From: a virus
IMG/VR virus record: IMGVR_UViG_3300010885_021444
Span: 1-36,086 of that record
DNA length: 36,086 bases
Direction: 5' to 3' (one strand)
The notes beneath the pieces were generated by a model that was not told the origin of the DNA, ran no database searches, and saw only the letters and a program-made list of their open reading frames with translations. The position numbers and the translations under genes are program-made. The stretch's first letter is position 1; the number at the start of each line of letters is the position of its first letter. This document shows, piece after piece, positions 9,341 through 23,681 of this stretch.

Positions 9341-10079
9341 CTTGGTTATTCCAAAAAAACTTGTAGTACTCAACGTCAAGGGCAAAGCGTTTCATATGCT
9401 TGACCGTTGCTCCTGTGTGTGAGTAAAGCGGTACGCCTGCCTGCCCCATAAGCTTAAAGAAGTTGATGTCTTCGGATACAAAGTTTTCGCCAACCCCAGT
9501 CTCATTAAAATATGGGATAGAACCATGAGCTTTACGCATGGCTGTTACTGCGTTGCGATGCATCAGCACAAACCCAAACCCTGCTGAACCTACCTTGATA
9601 AGAGCATCCTTAGGCAAAGGGTGAACGTATCTAATCTTGTAGTCATCCCCTTCAACCCAGTCAAAGATAGCAGGATACGGAGCCATGAGGCTACGCTCAT
9701 TCTCTTTAGAGATGAAGTAAGTACCAGTAACTACTGGTCTATCCTTTGCATCTGCTGCTGCCCATACTTTTTGCAAAGCTTCTTCGGTAAGGACAATGTC
9801 GCTATCTACCCATAGCACCCAGTCAAAGCCACTGTTGTCATACCAGTGCTCTAGTGCTACCTGACGTTGCCGTCCTATCTGGTTGCCTTGTACACGCATA
9901 GCTGACTTGATGGGTAGCTGTGAAGTTAAAGCAGAGTAGACAGTGCCCTCTGCAAACTTGCCATCTACTAAGCCGTTATCACACCAGCATAGAATGATCT
10001 CGCCTTTATTCCTCTGGGGCATCGTAGTCTGGGTCTTCATTGGTGGCAACGCCTGCTTCTTCTTGTGTGTCTTCGTCAT
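9330..10079 (-). CDS. Glycosyltransferase (GT2-like)
   Basis: 249 residues from ATG 10079, chosen for the GGAG 8 nt upstream; starts at 10040 and 10022 are possible and would overlap the previous gene less. The fold begins at KGEIILCWCDNG. WVLWVDSDIVLTEEAL carries the DxD-type metal/nucleotide-sugar motif; VTGTYFISKEN and VGSAGFGFVLMHR are typical later strands of GT-A enzymes. It transfers a sugar from a nucleotide donor to an unknown acceptor (phage DNA, virion protein or host glycan). The methyltransferase downstream may act in the same pathway. Confidence 0.78.
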   Translation of the reverse strand: MTKTHKKKQALPPMKTQTTMPQRNKGEIILCWCDNGLVDGKFAEGTVYSALTSQLPIKSAMRVQGNQIGRQRQVALEHWYDNSGFDWVLWVDSDIVLTEEALQKVWAAADAKDRPVVTGTYFISKENERSLMAPYPAIFDWVEGDDYKIRYVHPLPKDALIKVGSAGFGFVLMHRNAVTAMRKAHGSIPYFNETGVGENFVSEDINFFKLMGQAGVPLYSHTGATVKHMKRFALDVEYYKFFWNNQDAT

Positions 10080-10689
10080 GGTATGGTCTCCAACCACCTA
10101 GATGTTGTACTAAAGATGCCAGCGCTCGCTGGACTTTCATTCGTGCGCCATCAGCGCTAGTGTCCCATTCGGTTGCTAGGGTAGCCCAGTCAGCGCTCTC
10201 ATCCATAAAGCGCAGACGCAAGATGTTCTGCTTGGTCTCTGATATTTTATTAAAAGCTCCAGCTATATCAGCACGTAACGCTAGCCAGTTCATGCCATCG
10301 CTAATCTCACCGCCACTAAACTGGAAGTTAAGATCTTTGATCTTGGCTGGCATCTCGTATGACTCAAGAATAATGGTAGGCAAGAACGTCTCTACTACTG
10401 AGATGTCGTAGTAGTAAAGATCGGTTGTGTCGTACCCTTGCTGCCGTGCCTTTTCTTTTTCGCAATACTTAAGTACTTGATTGCGTAGGGACTTGGCTAT
10501 TAGCCTATCCCTTTCTTTTTCAGGGAAGGATAGCCATTCTTTAAACTTACGAGGATGAGAGACAAACCAAAGATTTTGCTCTTGTACAAGATCCTCATGC
10601 TCTACCATTTGGTAGCGTTTTTTGTACTCAGAAGCGATACGCGCTACCATCTCTGAGTACTCTAGCCATTCTTCTGTATGGTGTCTCAT
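10006..10689 (-). CDS. Sigma-factor-like/HTH DNA-binding protein
   Basis: 227 residues. The C-terminal third (FNKISETKQNILRLRFMDESADWATLA, then a helix with SADGARMKVQRALASLVQHL) resembles sigma region 4 and its helix-turn-helix. The N-terminal part (EDLVQEQNLWFVSHPRKFKEW) resembles a degenerate region 2. The acidic tail after residue about 205 is disordered. Proteins of this size and layout occur in actinophage replication clusters and may redirect host polymerase or act as DNA-binding factors. ATG 10689 overlaps the preceding stop (ATGA). Confidence 0.65.
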   Translation of the reverse strand: MRHHTEEWLEYSEMVARIASEYKKRYQMVEHEDLVQEQNLWFVSHPRKFKEWLSFPEKERDRLIAKSLRNQVLKYCEKEKARQQGYDTTDLYYYDISVVETFLPTIILESYEMPAKIKDLNFQFSGGEISDGMNWLALRADIAGAFNKISETKQNILRLRFMDESADWATLATEWDTSADGARMKVQRALASLVQHLGGWRPYHDEDTQEEAGVATNEDPDYDAPEE

Positions 10690-15624: not shown

Positions 15625-16437
15625 TTACCATGCAGCCCACGACCCATTGCTAGATAGCTTGCTGTTGGTAGTTTTGCTGAAACACATACATGAATCAACT
15701 ACTTGACTACAGTCAGAGCATGCACCACAATAGAAGCATGCACCATCATACAGCTCAAGCATATCCTCTGTATTGACTGACTTACAGTTGAAACACTCAA
15801 CCTCAAACTCATCATAGTATCCATCATAAGATCCATAAGGCTTGAGTACAGAAGGCTTGCTAGCCCATGAGGTGAGGTAGCAGGAATCATTAGACCACCA
15901 TACACCTGATTCATCTTTCTTACCCTTCTCCTCATGGATAAGGTAGCATTGGTACTCAGCACGTGGGTCTACAGTAAGCACACACACCTTGGAACCAGAG
16001 GTAAAGTCTTCAATAATGTTATACAACTGTTCGTTGTCTAACGCCTTGACGCCACCCATATCATGCAGAATATCTTCTGCAAAGATACGTGTGTCGCTGC
16101 GGTCAGTACCATCCTCAAGCACTGGCAAGATACCATTGTGTGCTAGGTAGGTTTGAGTATCATGACCAACTGAGAACGGATGACAGTTGGCTATTGTCTG
16201 TGAGCCATGCGTAGCAAGGCGGGCATGCCACATAGCATACCCTTCTGGGTACTTACCACGGAGCTCAAGGAATTTATTGACTGCCTCATCAGGATTCATT
16301 GTACGTTCTACAATGATACGTTTATCGGCTGGTATTACAATCGCAAAGCCAAAGCCATGCGGGTTATTGAGAGCTGAGTTCTCTAGCTTCTCACGTGATG
16401 GTACTACGTTAGGCGGAACTACACATAGCATACACAT
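15625..16437 (-). CDS. Class II glutamine amidotransferase
   Basis: 270 residues beginning MCMLCV, so removal of Met1 exposes Cys2, the N-terminal nucleophile of Ntn-type amidotransferases. Other family motifs: NNPHGFGF (24-31), HARLATHG (71-78), CHPF (85-88), LAHNG (98-102) and SDTRIF (114-119). The enzyme releases ammonia from glutamine for a partner synthetase. The last about 50 residues add a Cys-rich zinc-ribbon tail (CFNC, CFYCGACSDC, CMC) not found in metabolic relatives. It is coupled by TAATG to the amidoligase, with a GAGGAG SD, which makes that protein the obvious partner. Confidence 0.85.
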   Translation of the reverse strand: MCMLCVVPPNVVPSREKLENSALNNPHGFGFAIVIPADKRIIVERTMNPDEAVNKFLELRGKYPEGYAMWHARLATHGSQTIANCHPFSVGHDTQTYLAHNGILPVLEDGTDRSDTRIFAEDILHDMGGVKALDNEQLYNIIEDFTSGSKVCVLTVDPRAEYQCYLIHEEKGKKDESGVWWSNDSCYLTSWASKPSVLKPYGSYDGYYDEFEVECFNCKSVNTEDMLELYDGACFYCGACSDCSQVVDSCMCFSKTTNSKLSSNGSWAAW

Positions 16438-18092
16438 TAGTTATTCTCCTCATCGTTGGTTGTTGTATCTGATTCAAACGTTTCGTTAATAATAATAAAG
16501 AGATTCGGATATGTCTCAGAGTTAGCTGATACATAGGCTACGAATCTAGCCCATGAGAATGGCTTAAGTTTAGGCACAATTTCTAGGGCACGGGTATACT
16601 CTGTTACTGCATGAACAAACTCAATGGCAGACAGCACACGTTCTTTACGCAGTGAACCCTTGAATACACGCACCTCTAAGGTATGTTCATTCTGTACATT
16701 GACTGCGCTATAACGATTCATGTCATGACTTTTGTTCTTGATCTTAGGAATAGCTTTACCCTTGTCATTGAAGGTAGCATAGTTAGAAGTACGACCAGCA
16801 ATGCGCTTGACCTGACGTTCATTGTCATAGATAAACTTAGTAAATCTAATTTGATGATTGTCATTAACAAATGCAGTCAAGCCTACATGCACATGGATAC
16901 CACATGAACTAGCATCCCATGATCGATAGCCCATACTGCGTAGTTTATCAAGCCATTTCCAATCAAGGCTGTGATATTCTTTAAGACTGTGAGGATGAGT
17001 AACAACCTCAAAGCCATAGCTTAATGAGCCATCTGATTTAAGATATAAACGTTTGCCATGGTCAGCAAAAGTAGATACATACTCAGCACCTTCACGTAAG
17101 TTAGCGCGACGTTGGCTAGCTTCTACCTCTAGCTCAATGCCCATGTATACACGGTCATCACCAAAGAATCTAGGCGATGGCTTGTAATTGTAGTTATAAA
17201 TATAACTACTGCCTTCATCGTTTTCTTCACAGTCATGACCGTCATCCTCTTGATACTCATAACCACAATCACCGCATTCAATGTACTCATCATAGCATAA
17301 TTGACAACGGTAATCACCATAGTGATTTGAATAAATAAGATTGTCACTATAATAAGTGGCACATGAATCACACTGTGAATAATCTGTATCATCAGGATTA
17401 AAGCATGAAGTACATACCCATTTGTTATCTAATAAGTTACGATCAACTGCATGAGTACCACGATATATATGATGCTCATTACAATCATTACATACAAATG
17501 CACAGCTACCATGAACATTATGTTGCTCACCATCAGAACCTGTGGCTACAAATGTACGGTGCCCTGAACTAGCAGCACTAACAGGTAACAGGATTTGATC
17601 ACAAGCATGACAGTTATCTAATACTGTAGTAGCATTTGGAAAGATACCATCAGGCAAGATAGAACTAAATTGATTACGTGTTATGTGATGATCATAATCA
17701 TATAGACTAACACCTAAAATACGTGAACGAATACATACCTTACACATTGCATTTGTATTTGTTAGTGTATACAAAGAGTAATTACTGTCATCACTAACAG
17801 GAGCAATAACATAGTACTGTGCATACCAACCTGGTACTGTGCTGTTTCTATGAAGTACTGAGTATGTATACAAAACACGTGGATCATAACAATGACTACA
17901 CGTACCATATTCATCTTCAGTTAACGTGATATTGATTGTTGCAAGTACATCTACACGACGCACTTCATAATCCCCAATGGGATCATACAATGCACTGATT
18001 GCATCTGCATGTATATTGCCATCTTGATTTAAGATAGCAGCTTGGATCTCTGGGTAAGTAAATACCTCAGGAGGAACCAATGTATCTGGCAT
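16437..18092 (-). CDS. COOH-NH2 ligase-type amidoligase with zinc-ribbon N-terminus
   Basis: 551 residues. The C-terminal half has the glutamine-synthetase-fold amidoligase motifs: MGIELEVE (317-324), LKSDGSL (351-357), GFEVVTHPHS (360-369), SCGIHVHVG (396-404), and NRYSAVNV/EVRVFKGS (459-480). These bind ATP/metal and join a carboxylate to an amine. The N-terminal half (65-290) is a chain of CxxC knuckles (CSHC 65, CKVC 117, CHAC 161, CNDC 201, CTSC 227, CDSC 241, CQLC 263, CGDC 273), probably several zinc ribbons for binding a protein or nucleic acid. With the adjacent amidotransferase it would form an ammonia-fed amidation system. The substrate is unknown. Confidence 0.82.
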   Translation of the reverse strand: MPDTLVPPEVFTYPEIQAAILNQDGNIHADAISALYDPIGDYEVRRVDVLATINITLTEDEYGTCSHCYDPRVLYTYSVLHRNSTVPGWYAQYYVIAPVSDDSNYSLYTLTNTNAMCKVCIRSRILGVSLYDYDHHITRNQFSSILPDGIFPNATTVLDNCHACDQILLPVSAASSGHRTFVATGSDGEQHNVHGSCAFVCNDCNEHHIYRGTHAVDRNLLDNKWVCTSCFNPDDTDYSQCDSCATYYSDNLIYSNHYGDYRCQLCYDEYIECGDCGYEYQEDDGHDCEENDEGSSYIYNYNYKPSPRFFGDDRVYMGIELEVEASQRRANLREGAEYVSTFADHGKRLYLKSDGSLSYGFEVVTHPHSLKEYHSLDWKWLDKLRSMGYRSWDASSCGIHVHVGLTAFVNDNHQIRFTKFIYDNERQVKRIAGRTSNYATFNDKGKAIPKIKNKSHDMNRYSAVNVQNEHTLEVRVFKGSLRKERVLSAIEFVHAVTEYTRALEIVPKLKPFSWARFVAYVSANSETYPNLFIIINETFESDTTTNDEENN

Positions 18093-19382: not shown

Positions 19383-19542
19383 GAGGCAACTGGAACATAG
19401 AGGGACCTGATAGGATCCCTTTCAGTTCATCAGCTACCAACTTACAGTTGTTGCAGCCACACTCAGTAAACTTATTACTGATGCGTAGTATATCGGACAG
19501 CCTAACCTCATAGGTAGGCATAGGTGCTGCGTGTTTGCTCAT
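19375..19542 (-). CDS. 55-residue protein with CxC..C motif
   Basis: ATG 19542 overlaps the NADAR stop (TAATG), with GGAG upstream. Product starts MSKHAAPMPTYEVRLSDILR and holds ECGCNNCKLVADELKGIL, a Cys cluster (CGCNNC) that could bind metal. The stop is at 19375-19377. No family recognised; coupling to NADAR suggests co-expression. Confidence 0.5.
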   Translation of the reverse strand: MSKHAAPMPTYEVRLSDILRISNKFTECGCNNCKLVADELKGILSGPSMFQLPRP

Positions 19543-19946
19543 TATGCTAGCTCCAATCGTATATCCATTAATATATTACCAAGCATATTCTTGCCTATTC
19601 CATTACATACCCCCCAGTAGGTATCGCCCCAGGTATTTTCTTCGACGATCTCTTCATTACCCGTAGCTATTAATTTCTTAGCTAAGTCTGGATGCTGCAC
19701 GAACTTAGCCTTTACTATATCGTACATAATTTGCAATCGATCTGCATCCCAGTCATCTTGGATCTTAACTTTCTTACCCAAGGCTTTGGCTTCAGCACCA
19801 GTTAACTTAATAAACCGGTGCTGCTCATACCCGTCCGCGCATTTCTGCGCCTGAAAGGCAGCTTCAGCATTCCTATATGCCAAACCGCCATACTCAACAG
19901 TACACTCCCAGAAGTTCGAGAGGTAAGTATCTTTAATGCTATTCAT
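19542..19946 (-). CDS. NADAR/YbiA-family N-glycosidase
   Basis: 134 residues from ATG 19946, with AAAGGG upstream; a TTG at 19952 is an alternative start. Family motifs in order: YLSNFWEC (8-15), NAEAAFQAQK (26-35) with Glu28, DDWDADR (64-70), IMYDIVKAKFVQHPDLAKKL (73-92), TGNEEIVEENTWGDTYWG (95-112) and GIGKNMLGNILMDIR (116-130). YbiA-like enzymes cleave N-glycosidic bonds of ribosylated compounds; NADAR proteins linked to DarT1-type toxins remove ADP-ribose from guanine in DNA. In a phage, repair of such damage would be an anti-defence function; that role is inferred. Confidence 0.88.
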   Translation of the reverse strand: MNSIKDTYLSNFWECTVEYGGLAYRNAEAAFQAQKCADGYEQHRFIKLTGAEAKALGKKVKIQDDWDADRLQIMYDIVKAKFVQHPDLAKKLIATGNEEIVEENTWGDTYWGVCNGIGKNMLGNILMDIRLELA

Positions 19947-19953
19947 TATCAAC

Positions 19954-20427
19954 TCACCCTTTCACTAATGGACGTTCGCAATCAAAGCATACTTTATGCC
20001 CGCGAGTTTGCACAATGAAGCACCAAGGACATACGATCTCTCTGGCTCCGAGCTCCAGGCTTTCGCCTAAGCCCATCGCTAAGTTCGGACTCATACAGTC
20101 CTCAAGGTGCACAGTTTGCGGGCGTAATTCATCTGGACGATTAGTCCAATCATGCCCACTTATAGGCTCAATATCTCGCAACCAAGGACGGCGATACTGC
20201 TGATTGCCTTCATCGACAATCTCATGAGCCTTATCGGCAAGCCTAGACTCACGCTTATCAGCGCATTCTAGGCACATAACTTGCCTATCATCTAACATGC
20301 ACACCAGACTAATTCCTGATATGCAGCCTGGACATTGGCGATCTGGCTCGATCCACTCGGGATCAATCACCAGCTCACGATGCCCTAACTCATACCCATC
20401 ATCATCAATTCCGTCATCGTAAAGCAT
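19954..20427 (-). CDS. Zinc-ribbon protein (two CxxC pairs twice)
   Basis: 157 residues from ATG 20427, which has AAAGGA 7 nt upstream; an ATG at 20454 lacks an SD. The N-terminus is very acidic (MLYDDGIDDDGYELGH). Two zinc-ribbon pairs are visible: CPGC...CLEC (about 31-57) and CPWC...CFDC (about 132-150). It may be a nucleic-acid-binding or protein-adaptor protein. It is the first gene of the long minus-strand operon after the terminator at 20507-20540. A decayed copy of its start region appears at about 21360-21400 on the plus strand. Confidence 0.6.
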   Translation of the reverse strand: MLYDDGIDDDGYELGHRELVIDPEWIEPDRQCPGCISGISLVCMLDDRQVMCLECADKRESRLADKAHEIVDEGNQQYRRPWLRDIEPISGHDWTNRPDELRPQTVHLEDCMSPNLAMGLGESLELGAREIVCPWCFIVQTRGHKVCFDCERPLVKG

Positions 20428-20506
20428 AACAGAATCCTTTCGTAATCCTGACATACGACTTGCACGCCAGTACCGAGAGCTAGGCAGAGGCTGCCTTGCT
20501 CGACAG

Positions 20507-20540
20507 CAAAACAGGCTACCTACCGAAGTAGGCAGCCTGT
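20507..20540 (-). terminator. Rho-independent terminator of the OB-like gene
   Basis: In minus-strand RNA, ACAGGCTGCCTAC (20540-20528) pairs with GTAGGTAGCCTGT (20523-20511) with one G-U pair and a UUCG tetraloop, followed by UUUUG. This is a textbook intrinsic terminator. It separates the OB-like gene from the Zn-ribbon/NADAR operon. Confidence 0.85.
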
Positions 20541-20546
20541 CTGCTG

Positions 20547-20572
20547 CTGAGATTACGCTAGCGTAATCTCAG
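20547..20572. repeat. Perfect 26-bp palindrome at the end of the OB-like gene
   Basis: CTGAGATTACGCT (20547-20559) is directly followed by its exact reverse complement. It covers the last codons (SEITLA) and the stop, and lies 7 bp before the terminator stem. It may be an operator or a processing hairpin. The inverted copy near 21270 lacks it. Confidence 0.7.
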
Positions 20573-20870
20573 ATACCTGGAAGGATTGCTTCCATTCATC
20601 ACCGACCTTGTTGGACTTGAACCAGCCGGTGATGTTAGCGCGTGGGCGCGGCGCTTGCGCCGCTGCTGCTTCATCCTCTCCGAGGATGACAGGGAAGGCT
20701 TCCCGCGCCTCATCGACTGCGTCGAATGAGATGAAGGGAAGGGACGACTCGAACTTACCGTTCTCGTCACGGAGGATGACGACACCAGTAAGGTAAGCAT
20801 TGCCAGACTTGGCAACCTTGACTTTAAGGGAAGCGAGTTCCCCTTTGAACTTAACAGAATTTGTGGACAT
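20553..20870 (-). CDS. OB-fold-like protein, candidate ssDNA-binding protein
   Basis: 105 residues from ATG 20870, preceded by a strong GAAAGGAGG. Strands FKGELASLKVKVAKSG and YLTGVVILRDENGKF, then SLPFISFDAVDEA, an Ala/Pro linker (about residues 70-81), and ANITGWFKSNKVGDEWKQSF plus VSEITLA suggest an OB-like barrel, the fold used by phage single-strand-binding proteins. It is a monocistronic gene with its own terminator, as expected for a highly made protein. The acidic C-terminal tail of typical SSBs is missing, so SSB function is a guess. Its start region pairs with an upstream inverted copy. Confidence 0.55.
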   Translation of the reverse strand: MSTNSVKFKGELASLKVKVAKSGNAYLTGVVILRDENGKFESSLPFISFDAVDEAREAFPVILGEDEAAAAQAPRPRANITGWFKSNKVGDEWKQSFQVSEITLA

Positions 20871-21028
20871 ATTTTGTCCTCCTTTCAAGCAGCCCGTCTT
20901 GCCACTGCCTGGGCGCCCGGTCTGTCAAGGACGACACGCGCAGCGTGGCGCAGCTTGCTGCTTGTCCTTGCAGACTGGGCTGGCTGTGGCAGGCTGTGCT
21001 GAAAGGAGGCTGTCCACAAGTTAAGTTC
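20847..21028 (-). promoter_or_regulatory. Structured leader masking SD, start codon and first codons
   Basis: Three 9-bp blocks pair in register: GAACTTAAC (20847-20855) with GTTAAGTTC (21020-21028); TTGTGGACA (20861-20869) with TGTCCACAA (21011-21019); CCTCCTTTC (20878-20886) with GAAAGGAGG (21001-21009). In minus-strand mRNA the 20847-20886 side holds codons 1-8, the ATG and the SD. The loop between (20887-21000) folds further: GCCCGGTCTG plus CAAGGAC (20915-20932) pair with GTCCTTG plus CAGACTGGGC (20964-20980), and two small hairpins lie inside. Translation would require opening of this structure. Confidence 0.65.
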
Positions 21029-21276
21029 ATGGAGGACACCGCTTCCAGTCAAGGTGCCGAGGCAGCAATGGCAACCGTCTGGTGTCTAATCACGTAGTGA
21101 GAGGTAAGGAGAGGAGGATCCAGCCGAGTCTCTGAGACAGCGGAGACAGGCGGCAGGAAGCCTGACCAGCATCCGACGGAGGGTGAAGCTAGGCTGCCTT
21201 GGCAGCCGTAGCGCGACACATCGTAGGCTGGGAGAGTCCTTAACGGGAGGCATGAAGGATGCCAGCCGTCTGCAGG
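21000..21276 (+). pseudogene. Decayed inverted copy of the OB-like gene
   Basis: The plus strand from the RBS-like TGAAAGGAGG at 21000 follows the OB-like gene block by block to about 21276, including the equivalents of its start (ATGTCC has become CTGTCC at 21010), CGCTTCC, AGTCAAGGT, CTGGTGTC, GGAAGCCT, GGTGAAGC-type and ACATC..GGCTGG..AGTCC words. Deletions of 8, 5 and 4 nt and others break the frame: the fifth codon is already a stop. It is not translatable as the same protein. It may be dead DNA, or it may be kept as a regulatory RNA/DNA element, since it retains hairpins where the gene has them (GGCTGCC-TT-GGCAGCC at 21192-21207 against GGCGC-AA-GCGCC in the gene). Confidence 0.7.
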
Positions 21277-21494
21277 GCAGCAGACTGACTGCCCTTCGGG
21301 CAGCCATGAGCCGTCTGCCGCCAAGGCAGACTCTGACCTGTGCGCAGTACGGCGCAAGGGTCAGGATTACTTATAGGATTTCCATTATGATGACAGGAAA
21401 TCTGATTATGTAAGGGGCGCTGGACTAAGCCCCTGGCAGACTGCAGCGTACAGCACACCTACTGCTGTAGCCAGCAGTGCTGCTAAGTAATCCT
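21249..21494. ncRNA. Candidate structured RNA domain (strand unknown)
   Basis: Dense perfect hairpins: GGCAT/ATGCC (21249-21263), GTCTGC/GCAGAC (21268-21285), CTGCCC/GGGCAG (21289-21303), GTCTGCC/GGCAGAC (21313-21331), CTGACC/GGTCAG with an inner TGCGC/GCGCA (21333-21364). Then an 11-bp long-range stem, AGGATTACTTA (21363-21373) with TAAGTAATCCT (21484-21494), encloses three more helices: GATTTCC/GGAAATC (21377-21402), AGGGGC/GCCCCT (21413-21434), and CAGACTGC/GCAGTGCTG with inner TACAGCA/TGCTGTA (21437-21482). A multi-branched RNA on either strand is plausible. No known family could be matched by eye. Confidence 0.45.
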
Positions 21495-21791
21495 TTGACC
21501 CCAGGGTTATTAAAGACAGGGGTGTAATGCTATGTGAAACTCTGCCTGTAATTTTCTGTGGTTATAGTGACACCTCTGCTCTGACCAGCACTTATAGAGG
21601 AAATAAAAAATATTTCCGAATAAAGTGTTCGTTATGGCTGTTTGAACGGATTAATACTATATAGAGCAGAAAGTTTATTCGCAGGCTCTTTTATAGCCTG
21701 CTCATAACTGTTACAGTACAGTACGCATACTGCTCATTCCTGAGCGGCAAGAGCTGTATCTATAGAGCGGTTGGCACGGGAATAGGACGAT
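21495..21791. other. AT-rich intergenic region before terminase
   Basis: No gene seen. It holds a pairing of CAGGGGTGT (21517-21525) with ACACCTCTG (21570-21578), one G-U; a GGAAATA/TATTTCC hairpin with an A-loop (21599-21617); GCAGGCT/AGCCTGC (21682-21702); and the TACAGTACAGTAC motif. TACTATAT near 21654 could be a -10 element for the head operon, but its -35 match is poor. The promoter for terminase is expected here. Confidence 0.5.
21712..21724 (+). promoter_or_regulatory. Second TACAGTACAGTAC motif, upstream of terminase
   Basis: The 13-mer TACAGTACAGTAC lies 67 nt before the terminase start and matches the minus-strand copy at 8077-8089 exactly, in the same orientation relative to the gene that follows. 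A shared regulator or promoter element for late genes is a possible meaning. Confidence 0.4.
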
Positions 21792-23681
21792 ATGACATTT
21801 CAAAAGGGTGAGGCGCATCATAGAGTCAAAGCTCTAGCCGAGGCAAAAGCTAAAGTTCTTGAGCTGGTGGAGCAAGGAGCAACCCCACACCAAGCTATGG
21901 TTGCGGCGGGCAAAAAGCCCGATACGGTCAGACAGTGGATGCTTCGTGACTCCGAGTTCGCAAAGGCTTTAGCCGAAGCGAAGGAGCGAGGGGAATCTAC
22001 TTCCCTGGAGACCTTAGGGGTATCTAAGCAAGAAATCCCTTTTGCCCAATTTTCAAAATTATTTTTACAGCAGGAAGTATTCCCCCATCACCAGGACTGG
22101 ATTGATCTTCTGGAGGGTAGAGACCCTAGCTGGTTACATAAGAGCATGATCTATGAACCCGGCGCTCGGCATAGGTTGCTTGTCAACGTGCCCCCTGAGC
22201 ATGCCAAGTCTACAGTCATCACGGTCAACTATGCGACCTACCGAATTGCCCTAGACCCTAACGTCCGTATCATCATCGTCTCTAAGACTCTGGTGAAGGC
22301 TCGAGAGTTCGTCTATGCTATCAAGCAGCGCTTGTCCCATCCACGATGGATCAAGCTTCAGAATGCCTATGGACCTCAGGGTGGCTATAAAGAAGATTCC
22401 GATACCTGGCGAACTGATACAGTCTACCTGGGTAGCGATGCTCGTAACTCCAGCGAAAAGGATCCAACCCTTCAAGCTCTAGGTATGGGTGGTCAGATCT
22501 ACGGTGCCCGTGCTGACCTGATTATCCTTGACGACTGCATTACCACAGCTAACGCCCATGAATGGGAAAAACAGATTAACTGGCTGCAGAAGGAAGTTAT
22601 CACCCGTCTTGGTAAGAACGGTAAACTCCTAGTAGTTGGGACACGAATTGCTGCTAACGATTTATATAAAGAACTCCGCAACCCAAAGCATTGGTCTGGT
22701 GGAAAGAGTCCGTTTACTTACATGGGTATGCCGGCAGTTCTGGAATTTGCTCAAGACCCAGCAGACTGGAAAACCCTCTGGGCAAAGTCAGATTATCCGT
22801 GGGACGGGGATGAAGACCAAGAACCAGATGAGTCGGGTTACTACCCCAAGTGGGATGGCGGAGCTTTATTCGCGCGCAGATCTGAAGTTACCCCTTCAAC
22901 GTGGGCACTCGTCTACCAACAAGAAGACATCCAAGAAGATTCAATATTCTCCCCAGCTGTGGTTCAAGGATCTACAAACGGATCGCGGCGGGTGGGAGCA
23001 TTAAAGCCTGGCGCTGTAGGACATCCTAATCATGTCGAAGGTTACACAATCATCGGACTTGACCCCGCCATTGCTGGCAAGACTGCTCTTGTTGCCATTA
23101 CGTATAATCGCGCCGATGGTAAGATTTATGTGCTTGATTGTCTTAATATGTCTGAGCCTTCTTACCAGAAGATCCGTTCGGCAATTGAAGCGTTTACGGA
23201 AAAGTACCACCCACAAGAGTTCCGTATTGAAATTAATGCGTTTCAGAAAGCTTTTGAACTAGACGACGATCTACGTGGCTGGCTAGCTGGACGCGGTGTG
23301 AGACTGTCATCTCACTTCACAGGTAAGAACAAGTGGGACTCTAACTTTGGTGTGGCATCTATGTCATCCCTCTTTGGTACTGTCCGAGATGATAAGCACC
23401 AGAAGAACAACCTAATCGAATTACCTTCGAGCGAAGGCTCAGAAGGAATCAAGGCTCTAGTACAGCAGCTCCTTACATGGAAAGCTGATACTAAGGGAGC
23501 CACAGATACTGTCATGGCTTTATGGTTTGCGGTCATTCGTGCCCGTGAGCTTATCCAGAGCGGTACCAGAGTCACCCCTTATTTAAATAACCGTTGGGCA
23601 ACACGTGCCCAGATGGAACAAAGATACTCTCTTAACCTTGACGATGCATTCGCAGAGCAATGGCAAGAGACCTATGGATAG
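21792..23681 (+). CDS. terL: Terminase large subunit
   Basis: 629 residues from ATG 21792, with AGGA upstream. An N-terminal helix-turn-helix-like segment (ELVEQGATPHQAMVAAGKKPDTVRQWM, about 24-50), of the kind usually seen in small terminase subunits, is followed by the packaging ATPase: a Walker A-like PPEHAKST (134-141), Walker B LIILDD (243-248), and a coupling motif LLVVGTR (279-285). The C-terminal RNase-H-like nuclease begins at YTIIGLDPAIAG, with further acids in RIEINAF and near TDTVMAL. It cuts concatemers and pumps DNA into the head. The fused HTH may replace a separate small subunit, which is not seen here. Confidence 0.9.
   Translation: MTFQKGEAHHRVKALAEAKAKVLELVEQGATPHQAMVAAGKKPDTVRQWMLRDSEFAKALAEAKERGESTSLETLGVSKQEIPFAQFSKLFLQQEVFPHHQDWIDLLEGRDPSWLHKSMIYEPGARHRLLVNVPPEHAKSTVITVNYATYRIALDPNVRIIIVSKTLVKAREFVYAIKQRLSHPRWIKLQNAYGPQGGYKEDSDTWRTDTVYLGSDARNSSEKDPTLQALGMGGQIYGARADLIILDDCITTANAHEWEKQINWLQKEVITRLGKNGKLLVVGTRIAANDLYKELRNPKHWSGGKSPFTYMGMPAVLEFAQDPADWKTLWAKSDYPWDGDEDQEPDESGYYPKWDGGALFARRSEVTPSTWALVYQQEDIQEDSIFSPAVVQGSTNGSRRVGALKPGAVGHPNHVEGYTIIGLDPAIAGKTALVAITYNRADGKIYVLDCLNMSEPSYQKIRSAIEAFTEKYHPQEFRIEINAFQKAFELDDDLRGWLAGRGVRLSSHFTGKNKWDSNFGVASMSSLFGTVRDDKHQKNNLIELPSSEGSEGIKALVQQLLTWKADTKGATDTVMALWFAVIRARELIQSGTRVTPYLNNRWATRAQMEQRYSLNLDDAFAEQWQETYG

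Follow-up and report, generated by a model that had tools for sequence, protein, structure and literature searches.

A gene for an SSB-like protein accompanied by a co-evolving, non-coding inverted copy in freshwater tailed phages

Introduction

Why should a tailed phage keep, head to head with a small protein gene, an inverted copy of that gene which has no reading frame? The question arises from a locus near the terminase gene of an IMG/VR virus record, of which the whole stretch of 36,086 nucleotides (referred to here as the window) was analysed. An initial annotation had described an inverted duplication at this place and had offered three explanations for it, a fold-back copy in decay, an origin-like giant palindrome and a gene turned into a regulatory RNA; the first of these fails, as described below, and the other two survive as rivals of the reading that we propose. 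The inverted partner is kept complementary to the ssb-like unit, is regularly interrupted, and is better paired on the plus strand, and the phage group that carries the SSB-like gene together with its mirror copy is one of freshwater phages.

Anatomy of the inverted duplication

When the reverse complement of positions 20400-20890 was aligned with positions 21000-21420 by the Smith-Waterman algorithm a score of 639 was obtained, against a mean of 197 and a maximum of 267 in 500 dinucleotide shuffles, and three further scoring schemes concur; the inverted duplication that had been claimed is thus real. It is, as the initial annotation had it, a segmental inverted duplication that forms a giant palindrome (Table 1), the only one of such kind within the 36 kb window, and its longest perfect run is 11 nt. 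The limits first assigned to it, 20413-21394, identify the right locus, although both ends fall slightly short of the arms. The homology includes the centre and covers the 5′ leader, the Shine-Dalgarno sequence, the ORF, the terminator hairpin and the start of the next gene, in keeping with the earlier view that the match runs through coding DNA and terminator into the neighbouring gene. The earlier view of the right arm, that it is frameless yet retains hairpins, also proved correct. The perfect 26-nt palindrome over the stop codon belongs to the left arm only and is deleted in the right arm. We rejected the possibility that the right arm is an unrelated gene, since it matches its own ssb. 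A TTG at 20888 is a possible alternative start of the SSB-like gene.

Table 1. Features of the inverted duplication and of the SSB-like gene within it (window coordinates)
Feature	Position	Strand	Basis
Left arm: apex, leader, SSB-like ORF, terminator hairpin, start of next leftward gene	20395..20944	-	Inverted alignment to 20957-21416
Right arm: non-coding inverted partner; small indels destroy the frame, pairing kept	20957..21416	+	Alignment; compensatory co-variation in relatives
Palindrome apex	20945..20961		Sequence; apex sequences of relatives
Apex hairpin GCAGCTTGCTGC, closable with a CTTG loop on the plus strand	20950-20961		Sequence
SSB-like OB-fold protein, 105 aa from ATG; conserved orphan family	20553..20870	-	Structure model; relatives
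Shine-Dalgarno sequence TGAAAGGAGG of the SSB-like gene	20878..20887	-	Sequence
Shine-Dalgarno copy in the right arm, without ATG at a usable distance	21000..21009	+	Sequence
TTGACA, -35-like, reading towards ssb	20923..20928	-	Sequence; weak prediction
TTGCAG-16-CAGGCT, site of the right-arm promoter-like element	20968..20995	+	Weak in the window; clearer in relatives
Terminator of the SSB-like gene: hairpin with CTTCGG loop, followed by TTTT	20511..20540	-	Sequence
Equivalent of that hairpin in the right arm, with TTCG loop; the T-tract has been lost	21289..21303	+	Sequence
Perfect 26-nt palindrome CTGAGATTACGCT/AGCGTAATCTCAG spanning the stop codon of the SSB-like ORF	20547..20572		Sequence

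The AlphaFold2 model of the left-arm gene product is an OB fold (pLDDT 88.4) whose best matches in the PDB are bacterial SSBs, the best Foldseek match being a Mycobacterium SSB (E-value 1.3e-5, TM about 0.55), and the OB-like reading first given to this gene is thereby supported. We call the product SSB-like, and its putative SSB function is assigned from this predicted fold. No sequence relative of it was found in Pfam, PHROG or the PDB, and there was no match in the bacterial genome collection or among annotated phages.

The locus is that of a tailed phage beside its terminase, and not a conjugative leading region next to oriT. For the terminase gene (21792-23681), the nearest relatives that bear a name are those of ct2KA10 and of Streptomyces phages. 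The structural genes point right from the locus and the replication genes left, so that the palindrome lies between divergent operons, adjoining the terminase gene, and the SSB-like gene is the first of the leftward set, which also encodes a DnaB-like helicase, a primase, a RusA-like resolvase, an exonuclease and a sigma-factor-like protein. The last of these (10006-10689) has a match to sigma-K in PHROG, which suggests that phage-specific late promoters may be used. The gene two positions downstream of the SSB-like gene (19542-19952) encodes a NADAR-domain protein, and genes adjacent to each other at 15625-18092 encode amidoligase-like and glutamine-amidotransferase-like proteins; far to the left, a tail-fibre-like gene (83-2203) contains direct repeats at 758-1228. 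No tRNA or tmRNA was found by a search for these, and a search of the window and locus against Rfam gave no match at the gathering threshold, the best weak hits being those of chance, and no ribozyme.

Just upstream of the terminase gene, positions 21598-21724 hold a strongly conserved non-coding element that is present in 127 of 143 fetched loci and occurs with or without the SSB-like palindrome. It contains a hairpin-like CGTTC..GAACG repeat (CGTCC..GGACG in the relative L022), TTAATACTATATAG and an AGGCT..AGCCT hairpin; candidate readings are a late promoter or operator, a leader or a packaging site.

Distribution among relatives

A scan of relatives anchored on the terminase revealed the inverted copy in 11 of them and in none of those without the SSB-like gene, and four further SSB-like loci were also found to have an inverted arm. 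A profile search in IMG/VR then provided 55 SSB-like loci, every one of which has the arm, with alignment scores of 188-1113 against shuffle maxima of 108-197; the lowest score (188) comes from an element cut by a contig end. No phage that has the SSB-like gene and lacks the arm was found among these 55 loci, and when strong inverted duplications of any kind were sought in the 143 fetched loci and the window, only the SSB-linked element was returned. Phages of the same group that lack the SSB-like gene lack the palindrome too, and keep both the terminase and the conserved element upstream of it.

The regions upstream of the terminase in these SSB-less relatives contain no gene-length palindrome. 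In some of them (e.g. L035, L033, L060 and L081) approximately 0.5-0.9 kb of non-coding DNA before the terminase gene folds moderately more stably than shuffled sequences. A Smith-Waterman comparison that allows for G.U pairs is uninformative for these phages, its low gap costs leading to end-to-end alignment.

Covariation and run length of the arms

The two arms of the element evolve together. The median alignment score of left with right arm within a phage is 668, as compared with 248 for left with left and 108 for right with right arms between phages, and 18 of 20 right arms are closer to the left arm of their own phage than to the right arm of any other. Among 17 non-overlapping pairs of close relatives, 111 positions have changed on both sides and are still paired, where 8.6 were obtained with shuffled partners, and one-sided changes are depleted. 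Within the ORF, 72 of the 132 left-arm changes at paired positions (55 %) are compensated on the right, 49 of the 72 at third codon positions, and the compensated positions are mostly isolated, not gathered in tracts.

The second striking aspect is a ceiling on the length of perfect runs. In a set of 20 non-redundant paired elements (rods) the longest perfect run is 9-13 nt in 19 and 18 nt in one. Simulated decay with matched numbers of substitutions and indels, realigned identically, gives a median longest run of 24.5 with a minimum of 15, and runs of at least 11 number 20 in the observed rods as against 191 in the simulations. The style of interruption varies by clade (left bulges, right bulges or 1x1 mismatches) and the ceiling is the same. 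We note that L093, L095, L096, L110, L119 and L134 have bulges of 4-6 nt every 8-18 pairs, and that these recurrent bulges have a plus-strand G-Y-Y-Y(Y) pattern (GCUU, GUUU, GCUCC or GUCUC), whichever arm bulges.

The suggestion that the right arm is a fold-back copy in decay is wrong. The arm is present in all 55 relatives and none of these has a fresh, nearly identical copy; the right arm follows its own gene by compensatory changes, and the interruptions are too regular for random decay. Neutral decay is rejected on these grounds together with the capped runs.

Strand preference and paired extent

Read on the plus strand, the standing mismatches comprise 259 G.A and 257 G.U, against 107 A.C and 89 C.U. 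Among 20 rods, G.U (G.T in DNA) outnumbers A.C in 17 and is outnumbered in two, and A.G outnumbers C.U in 19 and is outnumbered in none; coding columns alone give 149 to 63 and 175 to 37 for the same two comparisons. The bias peaks close to the apex and disappears in the basal part. Folding is stronger on the plus strand in all 20 rods with DNA parameters and in 19 of 20 with RNA parameters, and because the RNA parameters favour the plus strand too, folding does not separate DNA from RNA. The plus strand, which is the ssb template, is the better-folding strand, and there seems to be selection for the strand carrying the gene and its mirror copy to fold back on itself over the full length of the gene. 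The mirror reading of this preference is that stable mismatches are avoided on the minus strand. Recent one-sided changes have little strand preference (93 G.U on the plus strand where 161 were expected, a ratio of 0.58, and 73 on the minus strand where 146 were expected, 0.50).

At the apices of L099, L100, L114, L132 and others a GGTTC motif separates the -35 from the -10 position. It points in one absolute direction in the two arms and is hence not inverted; it is perhaps a directional binding site. Being shared and non-inverted, it inflates the apical G.U count and accounts for part of the excess there.

When G.U pairs are counted as paired, the plus-strand helices include 13 runs of at least 14, where 7.9 would be expected if G.U were an ordinary interruption. 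Since these helices exceed the ceiling, what seems to be limited is the identity of the two arms as DNA and not the length of helices in a plus-strand RNA. The paired region corresponds to the ssb unit: it commonly begins at the apex, with its promoter-like elements, and continues a short way beyond the end of the ssb reading frame. Of 53 rods, 41 are paired through the stop codon, 28 of them with an end 8-51 nt downstream of it, and in the other 12 the trimmed pairing stops short of it. One clade has its pairing end precisely on the T-tract of a bidirectional terminator, and in the window the homology goes on past the terminator.

Sigma70-like elements that read away from the apex score higher in the right arm than in the left in 16 of 20 rods, a weak difference (means 5.05 and 3.47). 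The scores were calculated with E. coli weights and are weak, including those for the window (2.2 in its near-identical relative L090); the apex is paired, and the right-arm promoter-like elements located there likewise score weakly. In an earlier promoter scan the left arm did no better than wrong-direction controls. A better score in the right arm is what is expected of the non-template strand of a hairpin promoter, and is equally expected of a plain rightward promoter.

A possible mechanism and its alternatives

The structure described above is solid, and the mechanism that we infer for it is one to which we would give a probability of roughly 35 %: the plus strand would fold back, with the right arm as a surrogate non-template strand, and ssb would be transcribed from a single strand of DNA. 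The plus strand could do so when it is single-stranded, as in replication gaps or as a displaced strand, or when it is extruded under negative supercoiling. The apex would then become a double-stranded promoter, with the -35 and -10 reading supplied by the right arm and the template by the left, and RNA polymerase would run from the apex down the hairpin through ssb towards the ssb terminator, the surrogate strand displacing the mRNA from the template. Output of SSB might thereby rise when naked ssDNA accumulates and be shut off once SSB coats that ssDNA. The interruptions, every 13 or so bases at least, may serve to keep the double-stranded genome from perfect palindromy, a perfect palindrome being a likely target of hairpin nucleases, Holliday junction resolvases and recombination. 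It is a tentative extension of this reading that the phage carries a gene with its own non-template strand in cis, and that the supply of SSB in a dsDNA phage might in this way be coupled to free ssDNA.

An unlikely, though serious, alternative is that the plus strand is transcribed into a rod-shaped structured RNA of about 1 kb, in which the left arm is antisense to ssb and the right arm pairs with it, and which could be a scaffold, a protein sponge or an antisense RNA neutralised in cis. Much of the detail is as one would wish for such an RNA: G.A and G.U are the most frequent plus-strand mismatches, tandem GA/GA is the commonest 2x2 loop, RNA folding is stronger on the plus strand in 19 of the 20 rods, minimum free energies lie far below those of shuffles, the recurring 4-6 nt bulges have their plus-strand G-Y-Y-Y pattern, and there are the compensatory changes. 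However, a plus-strand RNA would have to begin at the left end of the paired region, and no rightward promoter that recurs among the relatives was seen there; in several clades what occupies the left base is a bidirectional terminator. The ends of the rod go with the ssb unit, the Rfam search matched no family, and the run ceiling, which protection from RNase III for example would predict, fails for plus-strand helices of Watson-Crick and G.U pairs. We had at first taken the mismatch bias on the plus strand to prove that the rod is an RNA, a reading that we dropped given that the ceiling has no effect on helices with G.U pairs and that the boundaries are those of the ssb unit.

It is rather improbable that the palindrome is a product of mutation only, that is, an old inverted duplication whose arms are kept alike by polymerase template switching, with functionless pairing and with selection acting only against perfect palindromes. 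Template switching is known to make the arms of imperfect inverted repeats more alike (PMC7202029, PMC3820800, PMC8604942), and both arms of our element do change together. Against this, no rod has a homogenised tract longer than 18 nt, the compensated positions are mostly isolated, no arm-less phage that keeps the gene was found, and the strand-specific mismatch preference and the terminator boundaries would be unexplained.

Less probable again is a minus-strand RNA, in which the ssb mRNA would begin to the right of the right arm and its antisense leader would fold back and shut off translation. The antisense leader proposed in the initial annotation is of this kind, and it is disfavoured by mismatch types that favour the plus strand, as well as by the folding energy; a consistent leftward promoter to the right of the right arm was sought and none was found. 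The paired extent does match the ssb mRNA, the ceiling holds when minus-strand G.U pairs are counted (28 runs of at least 11 and two of at least 14), and the bulges are purine-rich on the minus strand.

Of similarly low probability is a strand-specific DNA structure for replication or packaging (a single-strand initiation site, an origin or a terminase-side site) in which ssb is included by chance. Single-stranded DNA hairpin origins exist in other replicons, and the position between divergent operons and adjoining the terminase gene would suit one; but phages of the group without the SSB-like gene have no palindrome and yet keep the terminase and the conserved element upstream, and such a site would not need gene-length pairing that tracks codon changes. 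Finally, long reads are known to yield spurious inverted copies with indels, but a fold-back read or other error of assembly or sequencing is so improbable that it can be set aside: it is refuted by the recurrence of the element in 55 contigs, which come from many samples and have it at one and the same locus, between homologous flanks and with co-varying arms.

Relation to known systems

Transcription from a folded single strand has precedents that cover parts of what we propose, which for the ssb unit would amount to a gene-length version of the Frpo or N4 hairpin promoters. The Frpo/ssi promoters, which belong to the leading regions of conjugative plasmids, regain their -35 and -10 elements when a DNA strand folds, and known copies lie directly upstream of ssb, are active on ssDNA and are stimulated by SSB (PMC11541004, PMC9849209). 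There, however, the hairpin comprises the promoter only and the plasmid enters as ssDNA, whereas the element described here, known from its sequence, takes in the putative promoter, the whole ORF and often the terminator, has co-evolving arms, and resides in tailed phages. Phage N4 is alike in being a dsDNA phage with template-strand hairpin promoters of strand-asymmetric stability, extruded, in its case, from supercoiled DNA with the participation of SSB (PMC4496689). The N4 hairpins differ in being short promoters without a gene-length arm, and the enzyme that uses them is a virion RNA polymerase. No match to a polymerase such as the T7-like virion enzyme was found among the scanned subset of proteins, which included one of 1676 aa.

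Quasi-palindromes of the kind associated with SbcCD and template switching are likewise imperfect inverted repeats with coupled change of the arms; in the present case the runs are capped, the mismatches are strand-biased and no arm-less gene was found, and we know of no quasi-palindrome that tracks a gene codon by codon. Obelisks and deltavirus-like rod RNAs resemble the element: they too fold back over about 1 kb, are interrupted at regular intervals and have a single ORF in one arm. They differ in that the element lies inside a DNA phage genome, on DNA phage contigs with conserved neighbours, has its ORF opposite the better-pairing strand, and has no known ribozyme, the Rfam search having given none. 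SSB expression in T4 is tuned to free ssDNA by translational repression of gene 32 at its mRNA; here any such tuning of SSB to ssDNA would take place at the DNA template. A search of the literature, restricted to open-licence papers, found no description of such an element, and the anatomy corresponds to none of the kinds of element described there; the mechanism given above is a proposal.

The anatomy is that of a protein gene which, in the loci found, never occurs without an inverted copy that is non-coding, is interrupted at regular intervals and co-evolves with it, and selection is visible on one of the strands. Whether the plus strand acts as RNA or as DNA, the 55 loci constitute a natural data set on how near-perfect a genomic palindrome can be. 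If the plus strand acts as RNA, the element would represent a new type of rod-like RNA, about a kilobase long, which limits codon choice in the gene on the opposite strand. If instead the plus strand acts as DNA, single-strand promoters would be extended to whole single-strand genes, and the phage would have a direct route by which to sense its own ssDNA.
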